From positions 1-64,000 of the forward strand of contig NZ_JAFEWE010000014.1 of the NCBI RefSeq assembly GCF_017355785.1: 64,000 nt of DNA, read 5' to 3'. Positions 38,056 to 58,347 of this stretch are shown piece after piece; the stretch's first letter is position 1, and every line of letters starts with the position of its first letter. The translations under genes were made by a program, and so were the position numbers. The notes beneath the pieces were generated by a model. That model ran no database searches, was not told the origin of the DNA, and saw nothing but the letters and a program-made list of their open reading frames with translations. This DNA is from Desertivirga arenae (GTDB lineage: Bacteria; Bacteroidota; Bacteroidia; Sphingobacteriales; Sphingobacteriaceae).

Positions 38056-38694
38056 ATGGACAAATCGAATCTAAAGAATCAGCAGAGCGGCGAGCCAAGG
38101 AATGAAAGCCGAAGGGGGTTTTTAAAGCAGTCGGCAGTATTAACGGGTGTGGCTTTAACACCAGCAGTAGCTTTGAAAGCAGCAGAGAACCAGTGGGACG
38201 AAAAGCTTGCAGAGGCACTTGAAAAGATCCCTCTCAAACTAGAGGTTAATGGTGTAAGCAAAAGTTTGATGGTTGAGCCAAGAGTAACTCTTCTGGATCT
38301 TTTAAGGGAACAATTGCACTTGACGGGAACTAAAAAGGGATGTGATTATGGCCAATGCGGGGCCTGTACAGTTCATGTTAACGGTAACCGGGTTCTATCC
38401 TGTCTGACCTTGGCGGTGATGCAGGACGGGCAAAAGATCACTACCATTGAAGGGCTGGCTGAAGGAGAAAAATTACATCCTATGCAGGATGCCTTTCTGA
38501 AGCATGATGGATTTCAATGCGGGTATTGTACTCCCGGCCAGATCATGTCCGCTATTGCATGTATACGGGAAGGTCACGCAGATTCAGCAGAAGAGATCAG
38601 AGAATATATGAGCGGTAATATCTGTCGCTGTGGCGCTTATCCTAATATAGTTGATGCAATAGTAGAAGTTAAGAACGGAGGTAAGAAGGTATGA
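38056..38694 (+). CDS. paoA: Molybdenum hydroxylase iron-sulfur subunit (PaoA-like), 212 aa
   Basis: A [2Fe-2S] electron-transfer subunit of a xanthine-oxidase-family aldehyde dehydrogenase. A twin-arginine signal (RRGFLKQSAVLTGVALTPAV) sends the complex through the Tat route to the periplasm, as for E. coli PaoA. Plant-type ferredoxin cysteines lie in CDYGQCGACTVHVNGNRVLS, and the second cluster in FQCGYCTPGQIM and GNICRCGAYPN. It overlaps the FAD-subunit gene by 4 nt (ATGA). The three-gene order S-M-L matches paoABC, so an aldehyde is the likely substrate; xanthine or isoquinoline types remain possible. Confidence 0.9.
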   Translation: MDKSNLKNQQSGEPRNESRRGFLKQSAVLTGVALTPAVALKAAENQWDEKLAEALEKIPLKLEVNGVSKSLMVEPRVTLLDLLREQLHLTGTKKGCDYGQCGACTVHVNGNRVLSCLTLAVMQDGQKITTIEGLAEGEKLHPMQDAFLKHDGFQCGYCTPGQIMSAIACIREGHADSAEEIREYMSGNICRCGAYPNIVDAIVEVKNGGKKV

Positions 38695-39674
38695 TCCAGT
38701 TTCAATACACCCGGGCTACAGAGGCAAGAATGGCCCTTGATGCTATCTCGAAAGATCAGTCCTCGATGTTCATTGCCGGTGGCACTAATCTTGTGGACTT
38801 GATGAAGCGGGGAATCGTTACACCGGAAAGAATTGTTGATATATCTCGCCTTCCTTTAAACAAGATATCATATGAGGGTAAGGTGCTAAAGATCGGGTCG
38901 CTGGCCCTTAATAGCACTGTAGCCGAAAATAAACTGGTGCAACACAAGCACCCCCTGCTGGCACAAGCTTTAAACGCAGGTGCATCTGCACAGATTAGGA
39001 ATATGGCCACCGTTGGAGGTAATATCTTGCAACGTACGCGCTGTCATTATTTCTATGATACCTCTCTCCCCTGCAATAAAAGAGAACCGGGAACCGGATG
39101 TGGAGCTCTGGAAGGATTTAACCGGATGCATGCAATTTTCGGATTTAGCGACAAATGCATCGCTGTGCATCCTAGTGATATGAGTGTTGCATTGCTTGCT
39201 TTAGATGCAACGGTATTGGTGGAGGGATCTAAAGGACAGCGACGCATCCCTTTTGGAGACTTTCACCGTCTCCCTGGTGACAAACCTGAAATAGATACCA
39301 ATCTACTGCCGGGTGAATTGATTTTAGGGGTAGAGGTGCCAGATAATGGCTTTGCTAAAAATTCGCATTATCTTAAAGTACGCGACCGTGCCTCTTATGC
39401 TTTTGCACTGGTTTCAGTTGCAGCCGCATTGCAAATAGAAAAGAAGGTGATCAAGGATGCCCGGATTGCATTGGGTGGAGTGGCTCACAAGCCCTGGCGG
39501 CTGGCAGAAGCTGAACGTTCATTAATTGGAAAACCAGTATCTGAGGCTAGTTTCCAACAAGCAGCTTTGCTTGCAATGCAGGGGGCTAAAGGGTTTAAAC
39601 ACAACGAGTTCAAATTGAAGCTGGCTCCTAATTCTATTGTACAGGCCTTGAAAGTTGCCTCAAGAATGGTTTAA
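38691..39674 (+). CDS. paoB: Molybdenum hydroxylase FAD subunit (PaoB-like), 327 aa
   Basis: It binds FAD and passes electrons from the iron-sulfur subunit to an acceptor. The FAD pyrophosphate site is MFIAGGTNLVDLMKRG. An inserted segment ATVGGNILQRTRCHYFYDTS, followed by PCNKREPGTGCGAL, matches the extra [4Fe-4S]-binding loop known from PaoB and 4-hydroxybenzoyl-CoA reductase. Length fits the family. It is translationally coupled to the upstream gene and ends 13 nt before the Mo subunit start. Confidence 0.9.
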   Translation: MIQFQYTRATEARMALDAISKDQSSMFIAGGTNLVDLMKRGIVTPERIVDISRLPLNKISYEGKVLKIGSLALNSTVAENKLVQHKHPLLAQALNAGASAQIRNMATVGGNILQRTRCHYFYDTSLPCNKREPGTGCGALEGFNRMHAIFGFSDKCIAVHPSDMSVALLALDATVLVEGSKGQRRIPFGDFHRLPGDKPEIDTNLLPGELILGVEVPDNGFAKNSHYLKVRDRASYAFALVSVAAALQIEKKVIKDARIALGGVAHKPWRLAEAERSLIGKPVSEASFQQAALLAMQGAKGFKHNEFKLKLAPNSIVQALKVASRMV

Positions 39675-39687
39675 TAAATACACTTCC

Positions 39688-41928
39688 ATGAACAGGTTTT
39701 TTGATAAAGTTATAGGAGATCCGATGAACCGTGTAGACGGTAAACTTAAGGTAACTGGTGCCGCGCGGTATTCTGCAGAATATCAGCTTCCTAATATAAG
39801 TTATGGTGTTATTGTATCCAGTACTATCGCTAAGGGTAGGATCCGTTCTGTTGATGCAAAGGCAGCACTACGCTCGCCAGGAGTAATTGCAGTGATCTCC
39901 CATGAAAATGCAATTAGGGTTCCGGGATGGGCAGATAATGAGCATCCAACAGAACCTCCAACAGGCGGCAGGCCGTTAAGAGCTTTCCATAACAACCGTG
40001 TCTATTCAAACGGTCAGCCAATTGCTATAGTTGTTGCCGATACCTACGAACGTGCAAGGCATGCAGCAATGCTTGTAAAAATAGAGTATGATACAGATAA
40101 GCATGAAACCAATTTTGAGGCGAATAAGGGTAAAGCTGTTGTTCCCGCAGTTGTAAAGAAGAATCCGAAATCGGGACTGGCAGATTATGAACGCGGACAA
40201 GCTGAGGGATATAAAACTGCTGCAGTTAAGTTGGAACTGGAGTATGTTCATCCAACAGAAGTGCACAACCCCATGGAATTACAAGCTATCACGGCACACT
40301 GGGAAGCAGATGATAAGCTGATTGTGTATGATAAAGTGCAGGGAACAAAACCTACGCAACAGGCATTCGCTAATGAGTGGAAAATACCGGTGCAAAATGT
40401 AAAGGTGATTTCAGAATTTGTTGGTGGAGCTTTTGGGAATGGCCTGCATAATTGGCCGCACGAAACAGCAGCTATTATAGCCGCTAAAATGGTAAAACGG
40501 CCAGTGAAATTAATGCTCACACGCGAGCAAATGTTTTTCATGGTGGGCTACAGGCCTTATACCTGGCAAAAAATAGGAATTGGTGCAGATAAGGATGGGA
40601 AACTTACAGGTATTTATCATGAAGCCATAGGTCAGACTTCTTCTTATGAGGAATTTACAGAATCTACCCTGCAGCAAACCAGGATGATGTATACTAGTCC
40701 GAATATCGGTACGAAATACCGTCTGCTGCCTTTGGATGTAAGTACGCCAATATGGATGCGGGGACCAGGAGAAGCAACAGGTGCCTTCGCTTTAGAATCT
40801 GCAATGGACGAGATTGCCTTTGCTTTAAATATTGACCCTGTTCAGTTTCGTTTAATGAACCATACGGATACTGACCCTGACAAGAACCTCCCCTGGTCTA
40901 CCAAATATTTGAAGGAATGCATACAAGTTGGAGCGGAAAAGATAGGCTGGAGCAAGCGGTCTCTCAAGCCTGCGGGTGTTCGTTCGGGCGAGTGGCTGGT
41001 TGGCTATGGTATGGGGGTTGGTACGTTTGGTGCCCACCGTGGCGCTGCAGCTGTGCGCGCGAAACTGTTAGCTAATGGGACGGTAGTATTTCAAAGCGCG
41101 GTTACAGATATAGGCCCGGGAACTGGAACTGCAATGGTTCAAATTGCATCAGAGCATCTTGGAGTTAGTCCTGATAAGATAACTTTCCAGCTAGGTAATT
41201 CCGATTTCCCCCAGGCCCCAAACCAGGGAGGCTCGGCTACTGTAGCAACCGTTGGCTCCGCCGTAGTTGCCACCTGCAAGGCAATGAAGGAAAAGTTGCT
41301 CGGTATGGCCCCTGCCGCCGACAAACGCTTTGCCGGACTAAAGGTCGAGGATGTGACTTTCGACAAAGGATACCTTTCATTGTCGAGGTCCCCTTCAGTT
41401 AAAGTTGCCTTTACCGACTTGCTTAAGAAGCAAAACCTTTCTGAATTAGATGTACTACAAGACTCTAAACCAAACCAGGAAGCAAACAAGTATTCGAAGT
41501 ATTCATTTTCTGTACATTTTGCCGAGGTCCATGTTCACCCAGCTACGGGACAGGTACGGGTAAAGAAAGTGGTAACTTGTGCCGATGCCGGAACAATAGT
41601 GAACAAAAAAACAGCAGCTAATCAAATGATCGGTGGTGTTACCGGCGGCATAGGGATGGCTCTCCAGGAAGAAGCAGTAATGGATCACCGCTTTGGCAGG
41701 TATGTAACTAAGGATTTTGGAGACTATCATGTCCCCGTTCATGCAGACGTGCCCCCTATTGAAGTCTATTTTGTAAACAAGCCGGATTACATCGTAGATC
41801 CTATGGGAACTAAGGGACTCGGTGAGATAGCTATAATCGGGGTTGCTCCTGCCATAACAAATGCTATTTTTAATGCAACAGGAAAGCGAATAAGGGAATT
41901 ACCGGTAACACCTGATAAGCTCATTTAA
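39688..41928 (+). CDS. paoC: Molybdopterin-binding aldehyde oxidoreductase large subunit (PaoC-like), 746 aa
   Basis: The catalytic subunit holding the molybdenum cofactor. Features: Ald_Xan_dh_C domain near the start (DGKLKVTGAARYSAEYQLPN), the molybdopterin-binding core (FVGGAFGNGLHNWPHETAAI, GGSATVATVGSAVVATC), and the conserved catalytic Glu near the end in GTKGLGEIAIIGVAPAITNA. No signal of its own is present, so it would be exported with PaoA as a folded complex. The start is the ATG at 39688 as the longer frame overlaps the FAD gene and begins unlike the family. No maturation factor (PaoD/MocA) gene is adjacent, so maturation depends on distant genes. Confidence 0.9.
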   Translation: MNRFFDKVIGDPMNRVDGKLKVTGAARYSAEYQLPNISYGVIVSSTIAKGRIRSVDAKAALRSPGVIAVISHENAIRVPGWADNEHPTEPPTGGRPLRAFHNNRVYSNGQPIAIVVADTYERARHAAMLVKIEYDTDKHETNFEANKGKAVVPAVVKKNPKSGLADYERGQAEGYKTAAVKLELEYVHPTEVHNPMELQAITAHWEADDKLIVYDKVQGTKPTQQAFANEWKIPVQNVKVISEFVGGAFGNGLHNWPHETAAIIAAKMVKRPVKLMLTREQMFFMVGYRPYTWQKIGIGADKDGKLTGIYHEAIGQTSSYEEFTESTLQQTRMMYTSPNIGTKYRLLPLDVSTPIWMRGPGEATGAFALESAMDEIAFALNIDPVQFRLMNHTDTDPDKNLPWSTKYLKECIQVGAEKIGWSKRSLKPAGVRSGEWLVGYGMGVGTFGAHRGAAAVRAKLLANGTVVFQSAVTDIGPGTGTAMVQIASEHLGVSPDKITFQLGNSDFPQAPNQGGSATVATVGSAVVATCKAMKEKLLGMAPAADKRFAGLKVEDVTFDKGYLSLSRSPSVKVAFTDLLKKQNLSELDVLQDSKPNQEANKYSKYSFSVHFAEVHVHPATGQVRVKKVVTCADAGTIVNKKTAANQMIGGVTGGIGMALQEEAVMDHRFGRYVTKDFGDYHVPVHADVPPIEVYFVNKPDYIVDPMGTKGLGEIAIIGVAPAITNAIFNATGKRIRELPVTPDKLI

Positions 41929-42039: not shown

Positions 42040-42071
42040 TAATTGCAGATTATCATTTCTTGAGTTTAAGT

Positions 42072-43124
42072 ATGGGTAAGGATACGGAGGCGCTTGGATT
42101 TAAAATACTTGCTAACACAAAAGCTTTATTAGGATATTGGGATAAGAATATGGTTTGCCGTTTTGCAAACCAGGCTTATGAGGAATGGCTCGGGATAAAA
42201 CCTGAGGATATCGTAAACAAGTCCACATTGAGAGAATTTCTCGGTCCTGTATTTGAGAAACACTTCCCAATGATACAAAAGGTGCTCTTAGGTGAACCAC
42301 AGGCCTTTGAAAGGGACTTTAAACTTCCAAATGGTGGTGTTCGCCGTGCTGTTGTGAGTTACACTCCTGATGTGATTGGAGATTCAGTTGAAGGTTTTTA
42401 CGTTCACGCTGCAGATATAGGAACACCACTCCCCCAGGGTAAGCTGCTGATGAAGTACAGAGACCACGCAATGGAGACCATCAAAACTCTGCAGTTAAAT
42501 GTGCTTTTGAGATTTCCGGGATTGGAAAAGTTGGCTGAGAATGAGGGGATCTCGCAATCAAAATTGAAAAGGGATTTTAGAATTAAAACCGGTTCCAACC
42601 CTTTCGCCTATTATAGAAAACTACAAATGGAGTTTGCTCACTCCTACCTTCGCGAAAATAGATGCAGTCGTAAGCAGATGGCTGCTCTGCTAAATTTTGC
42701 TAATCCTTCTAATTTTTCAAGCTGTTATAATAATTACCTGAGGGAGAAAAGCCTTGAAGATAAGCAGGCTAAATTAGGTGAAGAACGGTACAGGATCTTC
42801 GTGGAGCAGGTTCCTTTTCCTCTCGCCATGCTTGACAAAGATCTCAGAATACTTGCTGTTTCTGATAAATGGGTATCCGCTGATCCTGATAAAAGGAATG
42901 ATATTTTCGGAAGGAGGATACTGGACCTTTATCCGGGCATTCATCCTAAGTGGGAATATATTGCTTCCGCGGCATTGAAAGGCCGGCGTTTTTCGTCCAG
43001 TCATAACTACCTCAATAGTCGTACTGGTCCTCCCCGCTTTAAATGGGAACTCAAACCCTGGTATAATCAATTACAGGAAGTAGGAGGATTAATTGTATAT
43101 ATTGAGGAAATGAATCAGGCTTAA
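42072..43124 (+). CDS. PAS - AraC HTH - PAS regulator, 350 aa
   Basis: An unusual order: a PAS_4 domain (about residues 8-115, KALLGYWDKNMVCRFANQAY, GFYVHAADI), an AraC/HTH_18-like DNA-binding domain in the middle (about 145-225: NEGISQSKLKRDFRIKTGSN, MAALLNFANPSNFSSCYNNY), then a second PAS domain (about 235-345: ERYRIFVEQVPFPLAMLDKD). The DNA-binding domain is therefore flanked by two sensors. The start is the ATG at 42072 (a TTG four codons earlier is less likely). It heads the photosensory island and has repeats in its promoter. It may be the transcriptional output of the light pathway, which is inference. Confidence 0.8.
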   Translation: MGKDTEALGFKILANTKALLGYWDKNMVCRFANQAYEEWLGIKPEDIVNKSTLREFLGPVFEKHFPMIQKVLLGEPQAFERDFKLPNGGVRRAVVSYTPDVIGDSVEGFYVHAADIGTPLPQGKLLMKYRDHAMETIKTLQLNVLLRFPGLEKLAENEGISQSKLKRDFRIKTGSNPFAYYRKLQMEFAHSYLRENRCSRKQMAALLNFANPSNFSSCYNNYLREKSLEDKQAKLGEERYRIFVEQVPFPLAMLDKDLRILAVSDKWVSADPDKRNDIFGRRILDLYPGIHPKWEYIASAALKGRRFSSSHNYLNSRTGPPRFKWELKPWYNQLQEVGGLIVYIEEMNQA

Positions 43125-43223
43125 TAGTTACTACCTAATAGTTAAGCTTCTGCAGCTATAAATCAGACCTAAGCAGGTAGGATTTATTCTTTTGGCTGTA
43201 TTATTTTGCTCCCATTATACTAG

Positions 43224-43583
43224 ATGAAAAAGGTACTTATTATTGAAGAAGATTTAAATATCAGTGAAATCTTTCATCTGGTGCTAAGTGATCACTTTTG
43301 TGTGAAAATTTTGCATAATACGAATAACGCTTATGGTGAAATAGAAAAGTTTCGGCCCGATCTTCTTCTACTAGATCACTGGCTTGGAAAAGCTAAGCTT
43401 GCAGCACTTATAAATAAGCTTAAAAACGATAATAGATTTAGGAAGATCCCTGTAATCATTTCATCCACCGATGATACTGTTACTCATGTAGCGGAGCAGT
43501 TGAGAGCCGATTCATGCTTGCCAAAACCCTTTGATCTGGATGATCTGCTTAACTTGGTGAGGAAACATTTAGAGCAAGGTTGA
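43224..43583 (+). CDS. Stand-alone response-regulator receiver, 119 aa
   Basis: A CheY-like receiver with no output domain. The phospho-acceptor is Asp51 (LLLLDHWLG), the acidic pocket is EEDLN (with an E-E/D pattern rather than D-D), and the conserved Lys is Lys101 in LPKPF. It lies 55 nt before the LOV kinase gene and is probably a phosphate target or relay for the photoreceptor kinases. Start is the ATG at 43224. Confidence 0.88.
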   Translation: MKKVLIIEEDLNISEIFHLVLSDHFCVKILHNTNNAYGEIEKFRPDLLLLDHWLGKAKLAALINKLKNDNRFRKIPVIISSTDDTVTHVAEQLRADSCLPKPFDLDDLLNLVRKHLEQG

Positions 43584-43637
43584 GACGAAACCAAAAAGGT
43601 GTTTTTAGGGTTTATATAATAATTACAATCTACAAAT

Positions 43638-45185
43638 TTGAAGGAAGAGACAAATAAAAACGGCTTTTCACCAGGTGGCGAACAAGAGCTTGAACTGATG
43701 CGAAAAGCTCTCGATGCCAGCATTACCGGGGTAATAATAACCAATAACTTATTGGAAGATAATCCTATCATTTATTGTAACGCTGCTTTTGAGCGCATGA
43801 CCGGATATGTGAGGAATGAGGTTATCGGGAGGAACTGCCGGTTTCTACAAAAGGAAGACCGAAGGCAGGAGGCTCGACAGAAAATCAAGGACGCTATTGA
43901 AAATGGAGAGGCCTGCATTGTTGAGATCAGGAATTATAAAAAGAATGGTAACTTCTTTTGGAATGAGCTTTACGTAACACCAATAAAGGATGCTAATGGT
44001 GTGGTTACCCATTTTATTGGTATACAAAATGATATCTCGCCAAGGAGGAAGGCTAAGGAGGATCTGGAACGGGTACAAAGGGATACCGACAGACTTGTTA
44101 TGGAGAGGACGAGGGAATTAAGGGAGAGTGAAGAATACCTCTTAAGTATTTTACAAACAGTAAGGGAATGTTTGATTGTCCTTGATGCTGAAATGAAAGT
44201 ACTTACCGTTAACGATCAATTCCTGAGAGTATTTAAAGTATCAAGGGCTGAAACTGAAGGTACCAAATTATATGACCTTGGTAATGGGCAGTGGGCAATA
44301 GAAAAGCTCCAGAATCTGCTTGAAAATGTTCTTCCTTCCAATAATCCTGTGCTGGATTTTGAAGTTGAACATGATTTTCCTCATATAGGAAAAAAGCTTA
44401 TGCTTCTGAACGCCCACCGGGTTGAATTAGAGGGACAATACAAAGACCATATTTTACTTGCCATTGAGGATATTACAGACCGGCGTGAAATTGAGCGGCG
44501 AAAGGATGATTTTTTATCTATTGCCAGTCATGAACTGAAGACTCCTTTAACAACAGTTCGTGGGTTTATCCAGTTACTTCAGAAAACTCCTAACACCCAG
44601 CTTCCTGATCAATTTTCTTCTGCTTTGGAAAAAGCGAACACACATCTGGACAGGCTTGGCAATTTGATTAACGAGTTGCTGAACGTTTCAAAGATTCAGT
44701 CGGGAAATATTGAGATTTATCGCGATTACTTTGATATAAATGAAGCGATATCAGAAACCATAAACGCATTTAGGGAAGCTTCCAAAACACACAGGATAAC
44801 ACTTAAAGGGAGTATTCCTGAGCAATATTATGGCGACGAGTCACAAATTGTTCAAGTAGTTAAAAACCTTATTTCAAATGCGATAAAGTACTCTCCCGAA
44901 GCGAAAGAGGTGATTGTAACCATTTCTATGGTAAGTGAATTTGTAAAGATCTCTGTAACTGATTTCGGAGTGGGAATTCGGCCTGACGAGCAAAACCGCA
45001 TCTTCCAGCGTTTCTACCGGGTAAGTGAAAATCAAAAATCGTTCCCGGGTATGGGAATGGGTCTTTATGTGTGCGAGCAGATCATAGAAAATCATGGTGG
45101 AACTATCTGGGTTGACAGTGAACCTGGAAAAGGTTCTACATTTAGTTTTACCCTCCCCTTACTAATTAATAATGACCGAAAATAA
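43638..45185 (+). CDS. LOV-domain blue-light histidine kinase, 515 aa
   Basis: The N-terminal LOV domain (residues 22-135) has every flavin-binding landmark: the adduct-forming Cys67 in GRNCRFLQ, Asn99 in RNYKKNG, Asn109 in FFWNEL and Gln130 in FIGIQND. A coiled coil (135-165) leads to a second PAS domain (about 168-280), then HisKA with His298 in IASHELKTPLTT and HATPase_c (NLISNAIKYSPEAK, DFGVGIR, GMGMGLYV). By family knowledge blue light forms a flavin-Cys adduct that changes kinase activity. The frame begins with a TTG at 43638; an ATG at 43698 would cut the LOV N-cap. Its end overlaps the next receiver gene by 14 nt. Confidence 0.92.
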   Translation: MKEETNKNGFSPGGEQELELMRKALDASITGVIITNNLLEDNPIIYCNAAFERMTGYVRNEVIGRNCRFLQKEDRRQEARQKIKDAIENGEACIVEIRNYKKNGNFFWNELYVTPIKDANGVVTHFIGIQNDISPRRKAKEDLERVQRDTDRLVMERTRELRESEEYLLSILQTVRECLIVLDAEMKVLTVNDQFLRVFKVSRAETEGTKLYDLGNGQWAIEKLQNLLENVLPSNNPVLDFEVEHDFPHIGKKLMLLNAHRVELEGQYKDHILLAIEDITDRREIERRKDDFLSIASHELKTPLTTVRGFIQLLQKTPNTQLPDQFSSALEKANTHLDRLGNLINELLNVSKIQSGNIEIYRDYFDINEAISETINAFREASKTHRITLKGSIPEQYYGDESQIVQVVKNLISNAIKYSPEAKEVIVTISMVSEFVKISVTDFGVGIRPDEQNRIFQRFYRVSENQKSFPGMGMGLYVCEQIIENHGGTIWVDSEPGKGSTFSFTLPLLINNDRK

Positions 45186-45537
45186 AACTATTCTGATCTG
45201 TGATGATGATGAGGGAATATTAGAATTAGTATCGATTATTCTTGAAGGCAGTGGATTCCAGACAGTCTGCGTGCAAAATAGCCTCGAAATATTTAAGAAG
45301 ATATCTGAAAAGGATCCGGATTTAATCTTTTTGGATCTCTGGATGCCTCAGCTTTCAGGAGACCAGGTTTTGAAGACAATACGGGAAGATGAATCCTTCT
45401 CAGGACTTCCGGTAATTGTTATGTCTGCAAGCCGCGATGGAGCCGCTATTGCCCATCAGGCTGGTGCTAACGATTTTCTTGCAAAGCCCTTTGATATTGA
45501 TGAATTAGTAGACAAGGCAAGAGCGCTGATGCGCTAG
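45172..45537 (+). CDS. Stand-alone response-regulator receiver, 121 aa
   Basis: A CheY-like receiver: acid pocket DDDEG, phospho-acceptor Asp55 (LIFLDLWMPQ), switch Ser in VIVMSAS and Lys105 in FLAKPFDIDE. No output domain. It overlaps the LOV kinase gene (start codon inside the kinase's last codons) and ends 20 nt before the phytochrome gene, so it is translationally coupled to one light sensor and adjacent to another. It is the best candidate shared target of both. Confidence 0.92.
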   Translation: MTENKTILICDDDEGILELVSIILEGSGFQTVCVQNSLEIFKKISEKDPDLIFLDLWMPQLSGDQVLKTIREDESFSGLPVIVMSASRDGAAIAHQAGANDFLAKPFDIDELVDKARALMR

Positions 45538-45557
45538 TGCTATTTGATATTTTAATA

Positions 45558-47768
45558 ATGCCAAAATTTAAAGTCGACCTCAGCAACTGCGACCGTGAGC
45601 CGATTCATATTCCCGGTCAAGTTCAGGCATGGGGTTTTTTAGTGGTGATCAATGCTACTAATAACATTATCAATTATGTTAGTGCCAATATCCTGGAGTA
45701 CCTGAATATCACTGCAGGATCAATACTTGGACAAAGCCTTTCCTTTCTAGAACAAAAGATTTCCACCAAGGAAAATCCCAATCCGCTCGTGGCTTTTGTT
45801 GAATCTGCGAAACGAAAGCAGGATACGGAATCTTACGAAATTTTTTACCAGGAAATCCAGTTCGATCTGCTTGTCCATTGCCAATCTGATTATGCTTACC
45901 TGGAATTTGAACTAAAGTTAGAAAAGTCAAGTCTTGATATTCATAATCAAATAGGTCGCCACGTTTCTACGATCCTTGCAACAAATAATCTTCCTGATAT
46001 ACTTAGTCGCGCAGCTTCTATTGTGAAACAACTGATCGGTTTTGATCGAGTGATGATCTATCAGTTTTTGGAGGATGCACATGGAAAAGTTGTAGCGGAA
46101 GCCAAAAATGAGGATCTTGACCCTTTTCTGGATCTACATTATCCGGCGTCTGATATACCCGCTCAGGCTCGTCTGTTGTATAAAGCAAATAAAATACGTT
46201 TGATAGCTGATGTGCATTCGACCACTTCGGCTATTTTAGCACTCACTGACACGCCTGTCGACCTTACTCATTCTGTTCTAAGGGCAGTTTCTCCAATGCA
46301 TATCCAGTACCTGAAGAACATGGGGGTGGCTTCTAGCTTTAGTATTTCACTGATGTGTAAAGGGGAGCTTTGGGGTTTGATCGCCTGTCATAATTATACT
46401 CCGAAATTTATAAATCACAGTACTCGTGAGGGAGCCAGGCTTCTCGGACAGATAATATCTTCCTCGGTGGAATTTAAGGAGGAGGAGATTGTAAATGCTG
46501 ATCAAAAAAGGCACAAAGCAATATTTGAAAAGATCGTTTCAGAATTGCGTCTTGGCGTAGATATCAAAGATGCTGTTTTAAATCCTTCTGTATCTTTTTT
46601 GCATATTGTTAAAGCAACCGGCGTGTATATGCAATATGAGGGCCGGATAATCAAAGACGGCGTTATACCTTCTGACGAACAAATGGATCATATTATCAAT
46701 TGGTTAAATGAAACGCTAAGCGATACCTTGTTCCACACTAACAAGCTTGTTGATCACATGCCCGAGGCGAGTGAATTCGCCAATGTAGCCAGCGGGATTC
46801 TGGTGTGCACCATTTCGCGGGAATTGAAGGAATATATAATCTGGTTCAGGCCCGAGTATGCTGAAAGTATCACATGGGCGGGTAATCCGGATAAGCCCGT
46901 TGAAGTTGATGAGAGTGGTACCGCAAAAATTTCCCCTCGTAAATCTTTCGAAAGCTTCAAAACGATAGTTCAATTTACCACCGAACGCTGGAAGGTTTAT
47001 GAACAAAATTTGGCAGAGCGTTTCAAAGAAGAATTGTTGTATATTATAAACAAAAAGGCAAGCGAAATAAGAGTTTTAAATGAGAAGCTGAAAGAAGCTT
47101 ACGATGAGTTGGAAACCTTCAGCAGTACTATATCTCATGATTTAAAGACTCCACTGACTGTCATTAAAAGTTATGCTCAACTTCTGGAGCGGAACAAATC
47201 TTTAGATGATGACGGAAAGAATTTTGCAGCCAGGATTAGCGTTGGTATTGCTCGAATGAATACGCTTATTGCAGAAGTACTCGATTATTCTAAAGTTGGC
47301 CGTTCAGAAATCAGCTTTAACCCGATTGATATGGCTAATATGCTTCAAACCATAAAGACCGAAGTTGCTACTGCTTTTAATAACCCGAATATGGTCTTCA
47401 ATCTTGGAAACACTCCAATTGTTCATGGAGATAAAATTATGATCTATCAGGTTTTCCTTAATTTAATAAGTAATGCCGTTAAATATTCAAGGCTTTCTAA
47501 TCCTTCCATTGTTACAATCGAGGGTTCGGAAAACGAATATGAAGTGGTTTACAAGGTTCAGGATAATGGTATAGGAATCGATCCTAAGCACTACCATAAA
47601 GTATTTGAACTGTTTAAGAGGGTAAATGTGAAGGCAGATTTCGAAGGAACCGGGGTGGGTTTAGCGATTGTAAAGCGAATACTTGAAAAGCATAAGGCTA
47701 ATATCTGGATCGACGGACGTCCTGGAGAAGGCTCTATTTTCTGGATCAAGTTCAGGAAATTACAGTAA
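45558..47768 (+). CDS. Bacteriophytochrome histidine kinase, 736 aa
   Basis: A red/far-red photoreceptor kinase with PAS-GAF-PHY-HisKA-HATPase order. Chromophore residues are intact: Cys11 in NCDREPIHIPGQ (biliverdin-attachment position), Asp199 in PASDIPAQAR, His248 in MHIQYLKNMGV and His278 in CHNY. The PHY tongue PRxSF motif is present (SPRKSF, about 459-464). Phospho-acceptor His527 lies in ISHDLKTPLTV, and HATPase_c follows with DNGIGID and GTGVGLAIV. The start is the ATG at 45558; the open frame extends to a GTG inside the receiver's stop. No heme oxygenase gene is nearby to supply biliverdin. Confidence 0.95.
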   Translation: MPKFKVDLSNCDREPIHIPGQVQAWGFLVVINATNNIINYVSANILEYLNITAGSILGQSLSFLEQKISTKENPNPLVAFVESAKRKQDTESYEIFYQEIQFDLLVHCQSDYAYLEFELKLEKSSLDIHNQIGRHVSTILATNNLPDILSRAASIVKQLIGFDRVMIYQFLEDAHGKVVAEAKNEDLDPFLDLHYPASDIPAQARLLYKANKIRLIADVHSTTSAILALTDTPVDLTHSVLRAVSPMHIQYLKNMGVASSFSISLMCKGELWGLIACHNYTPKFINHSTREGARLLGQIISSSVEFKEEEIVNADQKRHKAIFEKIVSELRLGVDIKDAVLNPSVSFLHIVKATGVYMQYEGRIIKDGVIPSDEQMDHIINWLNETLSDTLFHTNKLVDHMPEASEFANVASGILVCTISRELKEYIIWFRPEYAESITWAGNPDKPVEVDESGTAKISPRKSFESFKTIVQFTTERWKVYEQNLAERFKEELLYIINKKASEIRVLNEKLKEAYDELETFSSTISHDLKTPLTVIKSYAQLLERNKSLDDDGKNFAARISVGIARMNTLIAEVLDYSKVGRSEISFNPIDMANMLQTIKTEVATAFNNPNMVFNLGNTPIVHGDKIMIYQVFLNLISNAVKYSRLSNPSIVTIEGSENEYEVVYKVQDNGIGIDPKHYHKVFELFKRVNVKADFEGTGVGLAIVKRILEKHKANIWIDGRPGEGSIFWIKFRKLQ

Positions 47769-47787
47769 TTAAATGTCTATAAATAGA

Positions 47788-47821
47788 AAAACAGCGACAC
47801 CGTGGGTTGGTGTGCTGTTTT
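47788..47821 (+). terminator. Strong terminator after the phytochrome gene
   Basis: AAAACAGC (47788-47795) pairs with GCTGTTTT (47814-47821), and ACACC/GGTGT extend the stem past a bulged G, with a 7-nt loop. It lies 20 nt after the stop and closes the kinase operon, so the BLUF gene has a separate transcript. Confidence 0.8.
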
Positions 47822-47934
47822 AATCGCTCAACTAAATTTCTTTTTCATGTTTACAATTTCCAACCTGCTGGAGACTATAAAGTCATTCAAGTTTAAGAAC
47901 GATTACTTTGAGCAAAAAGTATTTCAGCTGAATT

Positions 47935-48195
47935 TTATTTCAAGGATTTTTTTTCTTTCTCAGATTCCAACAAATTGCTTAATTGCCCCTCAAGTATTAA
48001 GGCTATTGCAAATGCGTCAGAAAGATTTATTTTACTCATGCTGGACGATTTCCAAATTTCATCCTTCTGAATAGTAACCAGCATCTCCCCATTCAACCAA
48101 ATTTGAAAAACTAAGTGTAATGTATCCCACTGGACAACGTGATAGGTATTGCTCTTAAAGGCGACAGAATACTCTCGCTTGCCTTGGTAGATCAT
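47935..48195 (-). CDS. Small hypothetical protein, 86 aa
   Basis: A reverse-strand gene starting at ATG 48195, between the phytochrome and BLUF genes. The N-terminal 55 residues alternate in a beta-sheet pattern (YHVVQWDTLHLVFQIWLNGE), and the C-terminus is a charged helix (LILEGQLSNLLESEKEKKS). I recognise no family. The opposite-strand frame (47802-48074) is Leu/Phe/Ser-rich and less protein-like. It is convergent with the phytochrome operon. Confidence 0.5.
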   Translation of the reverse strand: MIYQGKREYSVAFKSNTYHVVQWDTLHLVFQIWLNGEMLVTIQKDEIWKSSSMSKINLSDAFAIALILEGQLSNLLESEKEKKSLK

Positions 48196-48332
48196 TCTCT
48201 ATAAAGGTAACAACAATGCCGACATTGTTGTCATGACACGCAAGAATATTATTCTGACTACCTTTTCCATCGAACCTTGAGTAGTATTTTCTTAGAAAAC
48301 AGAAGAACGGATAAATAAGCAGGAGGATTTTA

Positions 48333-48452
48333 ATGAAAGCAATACTTTTTATAGGTGGTATGGTTAAAAAACTACGGAGAGTAATTTTTGTTAAAGTGTT
48401 ACCGCGAATAACTGACCATGTACTATTTAATTTATCGAAGCGAAGCAATTGA
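48333..48452 (+). CDS. Possible 39-aa upstream ORF overlapping the BLUF start
   Basis: It starts at an ATG preceded by AGGAGG, an unusually good Shine-Dalgarno for this genome, and reads MKAILFIGGMVKKLRRVIFV then KVLPRITDHVLFNLSKRSN. It runs past the BLUF ATG at 48418 by 35 nt in another frame. It could be a real small membrane-like peptide, a translational coupling device, or chance. Confidence 0.25.
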   Translation: MKAILFIGGMVKKLRRVIFVKVLPRITDHVLFNLSKRSN

Positions 48453-48834
48453 AGAAATGGAGGATAAGGCCCTTAAGGCTATTCTCGGTAGTTCCAGAAA
48501 ATACAACAAAGAGGTGAATGTTACAGGAATGTTGTTATATTTTGATAGCAAATTCCTACAATTACTGGAGGGTGAAGAGTTTGCGGTAAAGTCTATATTT
48601 CGAAAAATATGTAAAGATAGCCGGCATCATAATATTGTGATTTTGAAGGAAGGTGAAAGAATGGAACGCTTGTTTCCTGGCTGGTCAATGAGTTTTAGAA
48701 CTCCCTCTCCTGAAGAAGTTGCTGCAGAGCCGGGCTATAAGGATATTTATACCCCCGGAAGTCCGGGAGCATTAGATCTTGTGAAACTGTTCAATCTTTT
48801 AAGAGGAAAAAAGGCGAGTGAGATAGTAAGCTAA
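48418..48834 (+). CDS. BLUF-domain blue-light sensor, 138 aa
   Basis: A short flavin (FAD) photoreceptor. All key BLUF residues are present by alignment with AppA: Tyr6 (MYYLIYRS), Asn30 (KYNKEVNVTGMLLY), Gln48 (KFLQLLEGEE), Trp89 and Met91 (FPGWSMSF). The C-terminal 45 residues form only a short cap, so it has no output domain and must signal by protein contact. It has a separate transcript after the phytochrome terminator. By family knowledge blue light rearranges the Tyr-Gln-flavin hydrogen bonds. The partner is unknown; the neighbouring AraC-type regulator or kinases are candidates. Confidence 0.93.
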   Translation: MYYLIYRSEAIEEMEDKALKAILGSSRKYNKEVNVTGMLLYFDSKFLQLLEGEEFAVKSIFRKICKDSRHHNIVILKEGERMERLFPGWSMSFRTPSPEEVAAEPGYKDIYTPGSPGALDLVKLFNLLRGKKASEIVS

Positions 48835-52393: not shown

Positions 52394-53533
52394 TTATCTC
52401 CCACTTAGTTTAATATCATTGGCTCCTGCCCATTGACTAATATCTTGTTTGCTTAAAGCAGCAGCCATCAAATCGGGGAAAAGGTCAGGTGTACAAGCAA
52501 AAACAGGCACACCAATGGAGGCCAGAAAATCAGCATTGCTGTGGTCGTGGAAGGAAGAACCGTCATCATTAAGGGCAAGTAAGGTAATAAGCTGAACCCC
52601 GTTATCTACTAATTGGGCTGCTTTTTTTCTCATCTCTTGTTGGTTTCCACCTTCGTACAGGTCTGTTATAAGCACCATAACAGTGTCTAAGGGTCGTGTA
52701 ATGATCTGTGAACAATAGGTTAATGCTTTATGGATATCTGTTCCTCCTCCCAGTTGTACACCAAAGAGCAATTCTACCGGATCTTGTAATTCTTCCGTGA
52801 GGTCTGCTACCTCCGTATCAAAGACTACCATCTTTGTGTTTACGGCAGGAATAGAAGCCATAACAGCTCCAAATATTCCTGAGTATACGACTGATGTCCC
52901 CATTGATCCACTTTGATCAATGCAGAGAACAATGTCTTTTAATGCTTTTCGTTTTCTTCCAAACCCGATCCTCGTTTCGGGAATTACTGTTTTATACTCG
53001 GGTTGATAGTGCTTAAGGTTTCTGCGGATGGTTTCTGACCAGTTGATCTCGTTATGCCGGGGCCGTCTGTTTCTGGCTGAACGATTTAGACTTCCGGATA
53101 TAGCCTGTTGTGTAGGTGCGGTAAGTTTTTGCAATAATTCATCTACTACCTTCTTAACAACCATTCTGGCTGTTGATTTGGTTTTCTCGGGTATAGCACG
53201 GCCCAGGGTAAGCAGGTTGGCTACGAGATGTACATCAGGAATAACAGTCTCGAGCATCTCTGGTTCAGTCAACATCGAGGTAAGATTAAGTCGCTTCAAA
53301 GCGTCCTGCTGCATCACTTTAACGATGGTATTGGGAAAGTATTCACGTATATCTCCCAGCCACCGGGAAACGTTTGGGGATGAGGGACCAAGTCCTCCCT
53401 TCCGGTCCGAATTATACAAGGCCTGAAGGGTGTTGTCAATGCCCGTTTCTTGTTTACTTAAATCTACTGAAAGCTCGTCTCTGGTTTCAGAACCTAATAC
53501 TAATCTCCAGCGTTTCTCCAGTTCTTCCTGCAT
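52394..53533 (-). CDS. VWA (MIDAS) domain protein, CoxE-like, 379 aa
   Basis: The C-terminal von Willebrand A domain carries the full metal-ion-dependent adhesion site: DQSGSM with Asp206, the Thr region (LGGGTDIHKAL) and the Asp in VLITDLYEGG. The N-terminal 190 residues are helical and basic. VWA proteins of this kind pair with MoxR AAA+ ATPases to remodel or insert cofactors into target proteins. It is the last gene of a five-gene operon, 6 nt after the DUF5682 gene. Confidence 0.9.
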   Translation of the reverse strand: MQEELEKRWRLVLGSETRDELSVDLSKQETGIDNTLQALYNSDRKGGLGPSSPNVSRWLGDIREYFPNTIVKVMQQDALKRLNLTSMLTEPEMLETVIPDVHLVANLLTLGRAIPEKTKSTARMVVKKVVDELLQKLTAPTQQAISGSLNRSARNRRPRHNEINWSETIRRNLKHYQPEYKTVIPETRIGFGRKRKALKDIVLCIDQSGSMGTSVVYSGIFGAVMASIPAVNTKMVVFDTEVADLTEELQDPVELLFGVQLGGGTDIHKALTYCSQIITRPLDTVMVLITDLYEGGNQQEMRKKAAQLVDNGVQLITLLALNDDGSSFHDHSNADFLASIGVPVFACTPDLFPDLMAAALSKQDISQWAGANDIKLSGR

Positions 53534-53539
53534 AGTTCG

Positions 53540-55780
53540 TTATTTTATTCCCAGGATAGTACCTAATATTGGTAGTACCCTGGATGCTCTTTCTTTATTA
53601 ATGGTTACTGCGGCTTCTCGTTTTTCCCCACCCTCTTTGCTGTATTTCACCCTTTGCGCTATCCTGCTTTTTTCAACAGAATTGTACACCGCAAATGTCC
53701 GGCGGAGTAAAGGCACAACCTGCAGGAATACTTCCTGATCAAGGCTTGCCAGCCAGTTATTGGTAATATTCCAGATATCATCGTCAAGTATCAATATAGT
53801 AGCAGAATCTTTTAGGAAGCCCTCTGCCCAGGCAGCCGAATAAGAAGGATCATTGCCTGATGACAATGCTTTACTAAACTCCGCAGCTGTCTGTTCACTG
53901 TCAATGTATTTAAGGTCATAAAGGATCTTTGAGCTCATGCCGTGTACCAGCGGCGACACTTGCTTTACGGTTGTAACCTTCAATAATGTTTCGAGCCAGG
54001 TATTCTTTAGTTCTTCTTCGTCAAGGAAAAGGATGGCATTATTTACAGCTTTAATCTTTTCTGCCATGTCCGCTGATTGCTCCTCGTCTATCCCCGTGCA
54101 ACTTAATGGTAAACCAGCAATCATGCGGTAGAATATGGATCTTAGAATTACCTGAACAGTCTCCCGGTCTGTTTGCCTAACGTTGCCGTACCGGCTTACC
54201 TGTACAAGTGGACTGAACGCGTCCATGAGCATGGCGGTATCCGTTGTGCCCGAAGCCAGTTCATCCATTCTTTTCATTACCGTCTCTATACCTGCATGGA
54301 GATCCGCGGGAAGAGCCTTACTTACCAGTTCTGTTATTTCCGAAAGTTGTTTGCTATTTATTGCTTTATTCTGTAGATAATGGTTGCAAGCTGCTTCAAC
54401 TGTATTTCCCCATGGAGCTTTTTCCAGAAGCTGGATGGTAAGTTCCGGAGTCCATCGTATGCGCCATTCCTCCTTAAATGTCCCCTTACCAGAAGTATTT
54501 TGTTGTTTAGCCCAAGGGATGTCTAAGACCAGGAGGCGATGAAAAAGGATACTTTTCTGCAAACCACTGCTCTCTCTCAGATCGAGACCGACAACCTTGT
54601 CTTCATTGGAAAGTTTTAGTCGCATACCCTTTACCTGCTGCTCCAGGTCACGTTGAATAGGTACCTGCGGTGCTCCTTCCGGCACTTCACCCTGTTCCTT
54701 TCCAACGATCAGATCACGCCAAACCAATTGCATGGGAATATCATCTCCCATACACATCACGGTCTGTGTTGCTTCGTTGAGCTCTTTTAATCCCGGGCCA
54801 TTTAGGTCCCTGATAGCCGCGAGCGTATTGGCAAGTCGTACGGCCTCTAGGATGTGAGCTGATGAAATATCGACCTTGTTTTCCCTGAATAGTCTTGCTG
54901 CGTAGGAAAGCCATACTGTTCCATCATCATCTGGCTTGTTCCAGATGTGAGCATAATAGCCTGGAGAATTTACTCCCGCCCCGTATCCGCTTTCAAAGCT
55001 TAAACGATCGTTTGTCCATGGGATCCAGGTGGTCTCAACTTTTGTCTTGGGAAGATTTTTAAGCAAGGCGTCATCGTCCTTTTGCTTCGGCATGTTCTGC
55101 AGTGCAGGTACATGCCACGCTCCGCATATTACGGCAATTTCAGTATACATTTCTCTTTCTGCCGTCCGTATTCCGCGCCGCATAAACGCTTCTCTAATTT
55201 CTTCCCGCTGATCCTTCCGCTGAGGAAGTAATTCCCGCAGTGCTCCCATTGCCTCAGCGATAGCCGAGAATACCTCCTGTGGTTGCAGGTTTAATTCAAA
55301 CTGATGCTCCCACCATTCCTCTTCATCTTCAAAGCCAGCAATAGTGGCTAAGTAAGAAAGAGGGTTTTTCCTTATAGTTTCAAGATCCCCAATTTCCTGT
55401 CCTGCTTGAAGGCTTTCTTCGTTAAGATCCGAAGGAATAGTATCTTCTTTTTTTGAAGGCGGGCTAGCGAGTTTGTGTACAAGAGGCGTATCAATGAACC
55501 TTACCGGTCTCTTATGCTCTACACCATATCTGATCGCTTGCCACTCTGGCGAGAATTCGGCAAAAGGGTAAAATACAGCACGTTGAGGATCGTCAGGTAC
55601 ATAAGCAAGTAAGGCAACAGGAGGCTTCATTTCCTCGTGGAGAACCCATGAAAGCATATGCTCTCCCTCCGGAGGTCCTTCTATAAGGATAATATCCGGT
55701 TTAATTTGGTTTAGCGCTTCCAGTACATGCCGTGCAGAACCTGGTCCATGATGCCTTATACCTAGTAAGTGAATGGCCAT
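53540..55780 (-). CDS. DUF5682 family protein, 746 aa
   Basis: The N-terminal part begins with the family signature LLGIRHHGPGSARHVLEAL and an acidic IEGPPEGEHML, as in EreA/ChaN/TraB-like folds that bind a metal or heme-like group through His and Glu; this homology is suggested, not proven. A central HIWNKPDDDGTVWLSYAARL stretch and helical C-terminal half follow. Biochemical role is unknown, but the gene is consistently found with MoxR, VWA and SWIM proteins. It starts 3 nt after the MoxR gene. Confidence 0.8.
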   Translation of the reverse strand: MAIHLLGIRHHGPGSARHVLEALNQIKPDIILIEGPPEGEHMLSWVLHEEMKPPVALLAYVPDDPQRAVFYPFAEFSPEWQAIRYGVEHKRPVRFIDTPLVHKLASPPSKKEDTIPSDLNEESLQAGQEIGDLETIRKNPLSYLATIAGFEDEEEWWEHQFELNLQPQEVFSAIAEAMGALRELLPQRKDQREEIREAFMRRGIRTAEREMYTEIAVICGAWHVPALQNMPKQKDDDALLKNLPKTKVETTWIPWTNDRLSFESGYGAGVNSPGYYAHIWNKPDDDGTVWLSYAARLFRENKVDISSAHILEAVRLANTLAAIRDLNGPGLKELNEATQTVMCMGDDIPMQLVWRDLIVGKEQGEVPEGAPQVPIQRDLEQQVKGMRLKLSNEDKVVGLDLRESSGLQKSILFHRLLVLDIPWAKQQNTSGKGTFKEEWRIRWTPELTIQLLEKAPWGNTVEAACNHYLQNKAINSKQLSEITELVSKALPADLHAGIETVMKRMDELASGTTDTAMLMDAFSPLVQVSRYGNVRQTDRETVQVILRSIFYRMIAGLPLSCTGIDEEQSADMAEKIKAVNNAILFLDEEELKNTWLETLLKVTTVKQVSPLVHGMSSKILYDLKYIDSEQTAAEFSKALSSGNDPSYSAAWAEGFLKDSATILILDDDIWNITNNWLASLDQEVFLQVVPLLRRTFAVYNSVEKSRIAQRVKYSKEGGEKREAAVTINKERASRVLPILGTILGIK

Positions 55781-55783
55781 AGG

Positions 55784-56866
55784 TTAAATAATATCCCGGC
55801 AAGCACGATAAATGTCTTTCCAGCCGTCACGTTGTTTAAGCACGGTCTCCATATATTCCTGCATCACAATCTTATCCTGGACAGGGTCTTTTACCACAGC
55901 TCCTATCACACCACTTGCTATATCATCAGCTTTCACAAGGCCATCACCAAAATGATAAGCCAGAGCCAGGCCGCTATTCATAACAGAAATAGCTTCGGCT
56001 GTACTTAATGTTCCAGATGGAGATTTGAGTTTTGTTTTTCCATCCAGCGAAACACCGTTCCTCAGTTCCCTAAAGATGGTGACAATGCGTTTAATTTCTT
56101 CTGTTACTGGTTTTTGTATTGGTAGTTCTATAGCTCTGCTAAAGCTGGATACCCGTTGCTGAACGATATCAACTTCTTCTTCCATACTGGAAGGAACTGG
56201 TAGGATAACAGTATTAAAACGACGTTTCAAAGCACTGGATAATTCATTCACGCCTTTATCCCTGTTATTGGCAGTTGCGATAACATTAAAGCCCCGCACA
56301 GCTTGCACCTGAGTATTAAGTTCCGGGACCGGAAGCATTTTTTCGGAAAGGATGGTGATAAGGGAGTCCTGAACATCAGAGCCAATCCTTGTAAGTTCTT
56401 CTATACGCACGATCTTACCTTGCTTCATTGCCCGCATTACCGGAGTTTCCACAATGGCTTCAGCTACTGGTCCCGCTGATAAAAGCATAGCATAATTCCA
56501 ACCATACCGGACAGCTTCTTCGCTAATACCCGCTGTACCTTGTATTACCAGGCTAGAGTCACCGGTAATAGCCGCAGCAAGATGCTCTGATACCCATGAT
56601 TTCGCTGTTCCTGGTAGTCCGTAAAGTAAGAGCGCTCTGTCGGTAGTAAGAGTTGCAACTGCAATTTCCATCAGACGCCTGTTACCAATATATTTTGGAG
56701 TGATCTCAAAGCCATTACTCAGCGTTCCTCCCATAAGATAGGTAACCACGGCATTTGGCGACATTTGCCAATTGGCAGGTTTCGTATGTTTATCCTGTAA
56801 CTTTATTTCCTCAATTTCCTGCGCAAATTGCTGCTCAGCTGCCTGGCGCAAAATAGTTTGTGTCAA
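55784..56866 (-). CDS. MoxR-type AAA+ ATPase, 360 aa
   Basis: A hexameric-type ATPase predicted to act as a chaperone for its VWA partner. Walker A is GLPGTAKS (residues 83-90), Walker B is KIVRIEELTR (about 151-160), and sensor 1 is ATANNRDKGVNEL; the arginine-finger region (LKRRFNTVILPVPS) follows. The C-terminal helical lid is present. It is 11 nt downstream of DUF5691 and 3 nt before DUF5682 in one operon. Confidence 0.92.
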   Translation of the reverse strand: MTQTILRQAAEQQFAQEIEEIKLQDKHTKPANWQMSPNAVVTYLMGGTLSNGFEITPKYIGNRRLMEIAVATLTTDRALLLYGLPGTAKSWVSEHLAAAITGDSSLVIQGTAGISEEAVRYGWNYAMLLSAGPVAEAIVETPVMRAMKQGKIVRIEELTRIGSDVQDSLITILSEKMLPVPELNTQVQAVRGFNVIATANNRDKGVNELSSALKRRFNTVILPVPSSMEEEVDIVQQRVSSFSRAIELPIQKPVTEEIKRIVTIFRELRNGVSLDGKTKLKSPSGTLSTAEAISVMNSGLALAYHFGDGLVKADDIASGVIGAVVKDPVQDKIVMQEYMETVLKQRDGWKDIYRACRDII

Positions 56867-56877
56867 AATATCTTAAT

Positions 56878-58347
56878 TTAAAATGTTAAACCTTCTCTTA
56901 ATTCAATATAACGTAACATGTTAGAGGCCTGATTACTAAAGTATCTTTTCTGATAGTCGTCTGCACCCTCCTCAATATATTTGCTCAGAAAGCTCTTAAT
57001 GCCGACTGGTAGCGATAGGGCTAGCCTGGTATAGATTGGCTGGGTGATCACGTATGGGTTTACCGCCAACCTTTTTACAACCCGTTCTGCCAGTTGTTGC
57101 GGAATTATTGAATAGTGATCATTGAGCAACAATCCTAATATGATGGGAAACCTCGACTCCAGGTATTTATCATACCACTCGTAGCGTTCATACTCAGAAA
57201 GGATTAATAGTAATTCTTCTCGAAAGGCTTCCTCATGAGCGAGGAGATTCTTAGCAAGAGGTTTGTTCCGGAAACGAATAGCTGCAGCGGCCAGGTAAGG
57301 AATAAAAACGGAGATTTGTTTATGCTCAATTGATAGCTTAAACCACTCATCTTGGGAAATTTGATACCGTTCTGCTAAAGCAGAAGGATCTATAAAACTT
57401 AGGATTTGGCTAAGCCAGAATAGCTGGTCGTCCACCCCTTTAACAGAACTTACTTTCTCTATCCCATATCTGAACAGGTCATCAGATGGAAGGACTGCCG
57501 GATCTATTTCGATGACCTTTTTTTTCAGTATCAACAGACTCCGTTCTTCTCTAATTGATACTGCATCCAGAAAATAGTTTATATAAAGGTTGTTAATTTC
57601 TGTTCCCAGTAAGGGTTGAAGTAATTTTAGTGCTACTTCTTTCACTTTCTTGCTTTTATCTTTTAATGCTTCCAACAGAAAGGCTTCATCTTTTACCGAT
57701 ATACCTATCTCTAATATCTCCAGAAATTCAGCCCTGTTGTTTGCATTTTCCTGCTCAAATACTGCCTGTAGAAGCTGCAAAGCTTTATCAGGATCTGTCG
57801 TCCTTAGTCGGGCCAGAAAGAGCTTACGGTCTTCGAGGCTCCCCGTTTCCCAATCGATTTGCTCCTCATTCTTCAGGGTTAGTCTCTGCCAGTTTGGGTT
57901 TAAAGAGCAAAGCCACTCTCCTGTTTTCCCGCAAACAGCGATTAGTTTTTCAGCTTTTCTTTTCTGTTCAATTGCTCTATTTAGCAACAGCGGTACCAAT
58001 TTAGAAGAAACGGTTTTATCGGCCTCGAGGGTTTTGGTTAACAGGTATTCGAAAAATACTTCGTCTTTTGATAGGAGCGCATCTTCTAAGTGCTGACTTG
58101 TACTTGCACTCAATTCTTCCCTGGTATCATCAGGACATTCAGGGATAGTATTTATTGAATCCTTAGCCTCCTGGCCGCTCTCCTCATAGATAAAAGCTAT
58201 TGCGGCGGACTTAAGGAAGGCATCCTCTTTATCCTCCTGCTTAGTGGTGATACCATCCTTAATATCCGACAACTCTTCTGGAAGTTGAAATTGTATTTTG
58301 TCAGTACCCAGCAGGGCTGTTTTTATAATATCGTTCTGGAGGCTCAT
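56878..58347 (-). CDS. DUF5691 family HEAT-repeat-like protein, 489 aa
   Basis: An all-helical protein opening with the family N-terminus IIKTALLGTDKIQFQLPEE. Helical pairs with hydrophobic spacing (for example KSKKVKEVALKLLQPLLGTE) are HEAT-like, suited to protein scaffolding. No catalytic motif is visible. Its start overlaps the SWIM gene's end by 4 nt. It is always operonic with MoxR/VWA in families known to me, so a scaffold role is inferred. Confidence 0.8.
   Translation of the reverse strand: MSLQNDIIKTALLGTDKIQFQLPEELSDIKDGITTKQEDKEDAFLKSAAIAFIYEESGQEAKDSINTIPECPDDTREELSASTSQHLEDALLSKDEVFFEYLLTKTLEADKTVSSKLVPLLLNRAIEQKRKAEKLIAVCGKTGEWLCSLNPNWQRLTLKNEEQIDWETGSLEDRKLFLARLRTTDPDKALQLLQAVFEQENANNRAEFLEILEIGISVKDEAFLLEALKDKSKKVKEVALKLLQPLLGTEINNLYINYFLDAVSIREERSLLILKKKVIEIDPAVLPSDDLFRYGIEKVSSVKGVDDQLFWLSQILSFIDPSALAERYQISQDEWFKLSIEHKQISVFIPYLAAAAIRFRNKPLAKNLLAHEEAFREELLLILSEYERYEWYDKYLESRFPIILGLLLNDHYSIIPQQLAERVVKRLAVNPYVITQPIYTRLALSLPVGIKSFLSKYIEEGADDYQKRYFSNQASNMLRYIELREGLTF

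Follow-up and report, generated by a model that had tools for sequence, protein, structure and literature searches.

Do a flavin-based blue-light kinase and a bilin-based red/far-red-light kinase, encoded almost side by side in a bacterium, act on the one receiver whose gene lies between them, or does this receiver belong to only one of the two? The question is raised by a row of light-sensor genes in the genome of Desertivirga arenae (G000 hereafter; 6.19 Mb, 99.8% complete). The window, that is, the whole stretch of 64,000 nucleotides analysed here, is its contig C5, and the features that matter for the argument are the following.

42060..43124, plus strand: regulator with PAS, HTH_18 (AraC type) and PAS domains (Pfam)
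43224..43583, plus strand: RR1, single-domain receiver, 5' of LOV-HK (Pfam)
43638..45185, plus strand: LOV-HK, histidine kinase with LOV, PAS, HisKA and HATPase domains; the start codon is TTG 43638 or a later one (Pfam, residue check)
45172..45537, plus strand: RR2, single-domain receiver (Pfam), the putative common receiver of LOV-HK and BphP
45558..47768, plus strand: BphP, bacteriophytochrome histidine kinase with PAS, GAF, PHY, HisKA and HATPase domains (Pfam; residues Cys11, Asp199, His248)
47788..47821, plus strand: terminator-like hairpin and T-run, 3' of BphP (RNA folding, terminator scan)
48418..48834, plus strand: short BLUF protein with intact flavin-site residues (Pfam, residue check)

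All six open reading frames of the initial annotation were confirmed at these coordinates, and its claim that three light sensors with intact chromophore residues are encoded here agrees with both the Pfam matches and the scripted residue numbering. LOV-HK matches its families far over the cut-offs (PAS_9, 1.5e-33; HisKA, PF00512, 4.9e-18; HATPase_c, 8.7e-33), carries Cys67 inside GRNCRFLQ according to the scripted check, and displays the full set of features of LOV histidine kinases, namely, the GxNCRFLQ cysteine motif, the Asn/Asn/Gln flavin contacts, HisKA, and HATPase_c; RNYKKNG, FWNEL, and IGIQND, read in the sequence by eye, are what we take to be these contacts. BphP also matches far over the cut-offs (PHY, 2.6e-44, along with GAF, PAS_2, HisKA, and HATPase_c) and combines the hallmarks of the histidine kinase type of bacteriophytochromes: PAS-GAF-PHY, the N-terminal Cys, the Asp of PASDIP, the GAF His, the PRxSF tongue, and HisKA. 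The scripted check located Cys11, Asp199, His248, PRxSF at 460, and the phospho-acceptor His527, all counted from ATG 45558, the mechanical open reading frame beginning earlier, at GTG 45537. The BLUF protein (6.5e-30) has Tyr6, Asn34, Gln48, Trp89, and Met91 of the flavin site all present, RR1 and RR2 both match as receivers, and the PAS-AraC-PAS regulator matches PAS_4 and HTH_18, with a weaker C-terminal PAS. The plus strand is used throughout the stretch that runs from the genes at 38056-41928, judged by eye to be xanthine-dehydrogenase-like, to BphP. The spacing noted at the outset was also borne out, with the RR2 gene overlapping LOV-HK by 14 nt and separated from the ATG of BphP by a gap of 20 nt.

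Our preferred reading, which we hold at about even chances, is that LOV-HK, RR2, and BphP form a unit in which the blue-light and the red/far-red-light kinases would act on one receiver, RR2, once the partner of LOV-HK and then adopted by the phytochrome. The evidence consists of the gene order, the intact sensor and phosphotransfer residues, the receiver tree, and the relic and the constraint difference in a sister species, G031, which together with G000 and G006 represents the genus in our collection. A more specific version, which we put forward tentatively and a shade below even confidence, is a direct two-colour coincidence switch: the phosphorylation of RR2, a receiver without an output domain, would be set jointly by the flavin-based blue and the bilin-based red/far-red kinases, the phytochrome having acquired the LOV kinase's receiver in the course of evolution, with the blue input later lost in the sister species. 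LOV-HK and BphP would each phosphorylate or dephosphorylate RR2, which, in turn, would either contact other proteins or serve as a phosphate sink. Historically, RR2 would at first have been the partner of the LOV kinase, would have been taken over by the phytochrome in this genus, and, upon the later death of the LOV kinase in G031, would have remained with the phytochrome in a red-only circuit. Within this scenario, the passing of phosphate from both kinases to RR2, the joint transcription of the genes, the direction in which each light would act, and the target of RR2 are inferences on our part. Blue and red inputs, then, may feed a single switch.

The ancestral side of the scenario rests on the company that receivers of this kind keep. 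An RR2-like receiver, with 43-58% identity, directly follows the LOV kinase gene in 49 of 51 Bacteroidota loci from Pedobacter, Mucilaginibacter, Sphingobacterium, Chryseobacterium, Epilithonimonas, and Niabella, and therefore RR2 came with the LOV kinase. These 51 loci (L076-L126) are those used from a scan of 80, the other 29 (L127-L155) having been dropped because their titles were non-Bacteroidota or named no phylum; Pedobacter sp. Leaf170 and P. jeongneungensis contribute two loci each. In most of the loci resolved by the gene caller, the receiver overlaps the kinase or starts at most 10 nt after it; the caller is a simple one, and some receivers missed by gene calls were picked up by tblastn. 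In a tree of 79 receivers, which has 126 columns and several long branches, RR2 and the G031 receiver form a pair (98/88) nested in a clade of 46 rows (96/87), 41 of which stand behind LOV kinases, and six receivers of 138-141 residues located downstream of other phytochromes make up a separate clade (100/99). A LOV kinase adjoined by a conserved single-domain receiver, the rule at these 51 loci, is the arrangement of LovK and LovR. LovK is an HWE-type kinase (the HWE/HisKA_2 class), and we know of no phytochrome in the LovK-LovR pair; unlike LovK, the window LOV-HK has a HisKA domain of PF00512 and would work in the manner of LovK-LovR while belonging to another family. The likeness lies in the pairing of a LOV kinase with a receiver of its own, as in Caulobacter crescentus, where the LOV histidine kinase LovK has its own cognate response regulator, LovR (PMC4844311).

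Taken by itself, such a history is compatible with RR2 serving the LOV kinase alone in G000, the phytochrome being a mere neighbour with its partner elsewhere, and the G031 receiver being kept by another kinase. We consider this reading unlikely, and several observations do speak for it. No phytochrome-like match was found in the fetched flanks of 46 of the 51 LOV loci, and the genome contains many kinase-like candidates (155 at first look). The phytochrome of G006 is 64% identical to the window BphP, and neither RR2 nor a LOV relic was detected at its locus, so a phytochrome of this genus can do without RR2. Directly behind 23 of the 29 phytochrome loci examined, there is no receiver; the other six (6 of 22 among those of kinase length) are followed by the separate phytochrome-receiver type. 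This type was the one other receiver type sought in the genus, whose three genomes yielded only matches of 28-29%, compared to 51-79% among its own six members; its absence would favour RR2 as the receiver of the phytochrome, but weakly, because phytochromes without a receiver gene behind them are common. In a quick, midpoint-rooted BphP tree of the 21 distinct phytochromes that passed a motif filter, from which the receiver-followed L014, L027, and L029 are absent, the closest phytochromes from beyond the genus include one that does have the separate-type receiver (L013). Partner types are not told apart by the residues that follow the phospho-acceptor histidine (LOV-HK SHELKTPLTTVRGF, BphP SHDLKTPLTVIKSY), the pattern used having missed 7 of 25 listed rows. 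The complete arrangement, furthermore, is carried by two genomes only, G000 and G031, and in the latter the LOV kinase is dead.

This dead kinase argues against a LOV-only receiver. In G031, the ortholog of RR2 (77% identity) is located ~26 nt 5' of the ortholog of BphP (78%), and both are intact; no LOV kinase gene is called at the locus, and just upstream lies a wrecked relic of LOV-HK that matches residues 1-52, 449-470, 459-492, and 493-510 only, in three frames and with a stop, and has neither the LOV cysteine nor the phospho-acceptor histidine. The strict LOV motif pattern has zero matches in the G031 genome, and no LOV-HK-like match at 1e-60 was found among the 48 of 105 candidates that were scored. 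The RR2 gene is tightly linked to both kinases in G000 and, in G031, to the phytochrome beside the relic; because relic, receiver, and phytochrome occur together in G031, the trio predates the split of the two species. Synonymous sites look saturated between these genomes (third positions are 36-40% identical) and so give no date for the loss. The fates of kinase and receiver differ markedly: the relic is changed at 14 of the 42 positions that are at least 90% conserved in 66 LOV kinases (orthologues: mean 0.9, maximum 5), compared to 2 of the 33 positions that are at least 90% conserved in 42 LOV-associated receivers for the G031 receiver (other receivers: mean 0.9, maximum 8; Fisher p = 0.0045). 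Leaving the stop and both deleted residues out of the count gives 11 of 39 for the relic (p = 0.029). Judged by these substitutions, the G031 receiver is one that stayed constrained after the loss of its former LOV kinase, and the simplest reading is that RR2 serves the phytochrome in this genus. Between them, G000 and G031 offer a ready-made comparison of a genome that has a working blue kinase with one that lacks it.

The relic could also be taken further, to mean that RR2 is now the phytochrome's own receiver throughout the genus and that the LOV kinase signals elsewhere or is being lost. The LOV kinase is, indeed, wrecked in G031 and has no match in G006, and the identity between G000 and G031 is practically equal for RR2 and BphP. 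This reading nevertheless seems quite improbable, given that the window LOV-HK is intact, departs from the consensus at only 3 of the 42 conserved positions compared, and overlaps RR2 in the same way as many of its homologues overlap their receivers.

The closeness of the two kinds of kinases is not confined to this genus. Among 151 genomes of the family, 28 combine a LOV motif match with a phytochrome, and in 5 of these 28, the two are at most 10 kb apart, yielding 6 pairs compared to 0.26 expected (Poisson on 5 genomes, 7.6e-6, or 1.5e-4 without the window, with relatedness ignored). The strict LOV pattern allowed no mismatch, so the LOV counts are lower bounds; in a larger sample, LOV matches were found in at least 129 and phytochromes in at least 228 of 399 genomes. 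The arrangements vary: head-to-head BphP and LOV-HK genes occur in G298 (L205) and two species of Sphingobacterium (L108, L121); the two genes of G141 (L182) are convergent, and each has its receiver; and in three species of Pedobacter (L079, L114, L122, which are G297, G104, and G144 of the family genomes, so that this set and the 51 loci overlap), they are ~3-4.5 kb apart. The tandem of LOV-HK, receiver, and BphP was found in this genus only, and it is the closeness, in other arrangements, that is repeated. Such repetition in Sphingobacteriaceae suggests that colour comparison may recur in non-phototrophs. In G136 (L181:6295-12661), a phytochrome kinase is flanked by LOV kinases on both sides, with BphP, LOV-HK, and an RR2-like receiver on the same strand.

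Several characterized systems resemble parts of the proposed unit. In Rhodopseudomonas palustris, the adjacent genes rpa3015 and rpa3016 encode RpBphP2 and RpBphP3, and LhfD is the cognate response regulator of both (PMC6879726); the likeness consists in two adjoining photoreceptor kinases that use one regulator, as proposed here for RR2, and the difference is that both of those kinases are phytochromes, whereas in the window a phytochrome is paired with a LOV kinase, a flavin-based sensor, and we suggest that the two share RR2. In the non-phototroph Pseudomonas syringae B728a, the signals of LOV and BphP1 are integrated, as shown by the swarming motility of mutants, and the response regulators that interact with the bacteriophytochrome are described in the same source as remaining elusive (PMC5654926). 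An integration of LOV and phytochrome signals is proposed here as well, with RR2 as the candidate protein that would join blue and red light, a step left unidentified in that earlier genetics. Ramlibacter tataouinensis, also a non-phototroph, has two BphP genes, one LOV-HK gene, and three BLUF genes, and RtBRR is discussed as a hypothetical common regulator of its two phytochromes; the putative operon given in the cited part of that paper consists of heme oxygenase, BphP1, CheY, and a hybrid kinase and, unlike the window, names no LOV-HK (PMC6848086). Among the titles listed from open-licence papers, none describes a LOV kinase and a phytochrome acting on one response regulator, a weak absence.

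A phytochrome needs its bilin, and, as the initial annotation had remarked, no heme oxygenase is encoded in the window. The sole heme oxygenase match in G000 is at C4:85075, adjoining another phytochrome, so a biliverdin source exists outside the window and may supply the window BphP. Altogether, G000 has 3 phytochrome matches, 1 heme oxygenase match, and 1 strict LOV motif match. The row on C4 (L188:7024-15188) consists of the heme oxygenase, a kinase-less phytochrome (508 aa), a 1863-aa CheB-CheR-PAS-histidine kinase, and a receiver; a second kinase-less phytochrome (503 aa), on C23 (L189:3205-10650), has a MASE3 histidine kinase on one side and a 1471-aa CheB-CheR-PAS kinase on the other.

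A circuit in which the LOV, phytochrome, and BLUF sensors all signal through two common receivers and the PAS-AraC-PAS regulator appears very improbable: every gene lies within 6.8 kb on the same strand, but BLUF is beyond the terminator-like hairpin, neither BLUF nor RR1 nor the regulator was found at the locus in G031 or G006, and a BLUF-like match (with the window BLUF as the single query) occurs in the flanks of only 1 of the 51 LOV loci. On these grounds, BLUF was rejected as a member of the unit, and so was RR1 as a shared receiver, a role that is unsupported, its placement in the tree hanging on long branches. Of the blue versus red/far-red circuit with shared receivers that had been proposed initially, the part comprising LOV-HK, RR2, and BphP is thus supported, albeit not proven, by synteny, the receiver tree, and the G031 relic, and RR1, the PAS-AraC-PAS regulator, and BLUF fall outside it; likewise, when relatives are checked for co-occurrence, the three-class set does not hold up, and LOV together with phytochrome does.

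The hairpin at 47788-47821 has a folding energy of -18.4 kcal/mol (z -3.0), and a terminator scan also marks it, albeit as one of 10 sites in the region compared to 4.8 in shuffles; a promoter scan of the same region yielded 14 sites compared to 18.9 in shuffles. BphP and BLUF are separated by the hairpin and 649 nt, of which ~600 nt contain no supported gene; searching the remaining 59 of 60 genomes turned up no match to a small reverse open reading frame at 47935-48195, which is unlikely to be a gene. The PAS-AraC-PAS regulator has one full-length relative among the 59 other genomes, in G014 (44% identity), and no photoreceptor was recognised within the 16 kb around it; this relative is found near receiver-kinase-receiver genes (L197:2866-8727), as in the window. 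A PAS protein beside a BLUF gene in G002, 41% similar to the start of the regulator, was rejected as a counterpart, being a PAS-HATPase protein without an AraC domain.

None of the nine other BLUF domains compared, 2 of the four BLUF matches of G031 among them, exceeds ~40% identity to the window BLUF. G000 has 7 BLUF-domain matches, 4 of which keep the active Tyr and Gln; the 3 that have lost both (L193:6676-7113, L194:6806-7243, L195:6930-7364) are probably light-blind BLUF folds. A better candidate for a BLUF circuit than the window gene would be a conserved same-strand row of BLUF, an alpha/beta hydrolase, two kinases, and a single-domain receiver, present on C9 of G000 (L191:638-6445) and C3 of G031 (L208:1038-6848), with the kinases assigned to the PAS-HisKA type by Pfam in the former and by similarity in the latter; the row recalls RsbQ-type hydrolase/PAS sensing. 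Farther along the window, at 52394-58347 on the minus strand, VWA_CoxE, DUF5682, AAA_5 (MoxR-like), and DUF5691 genes form a row, a MoxR/VWA-type system that adjoins a PAS kinase.
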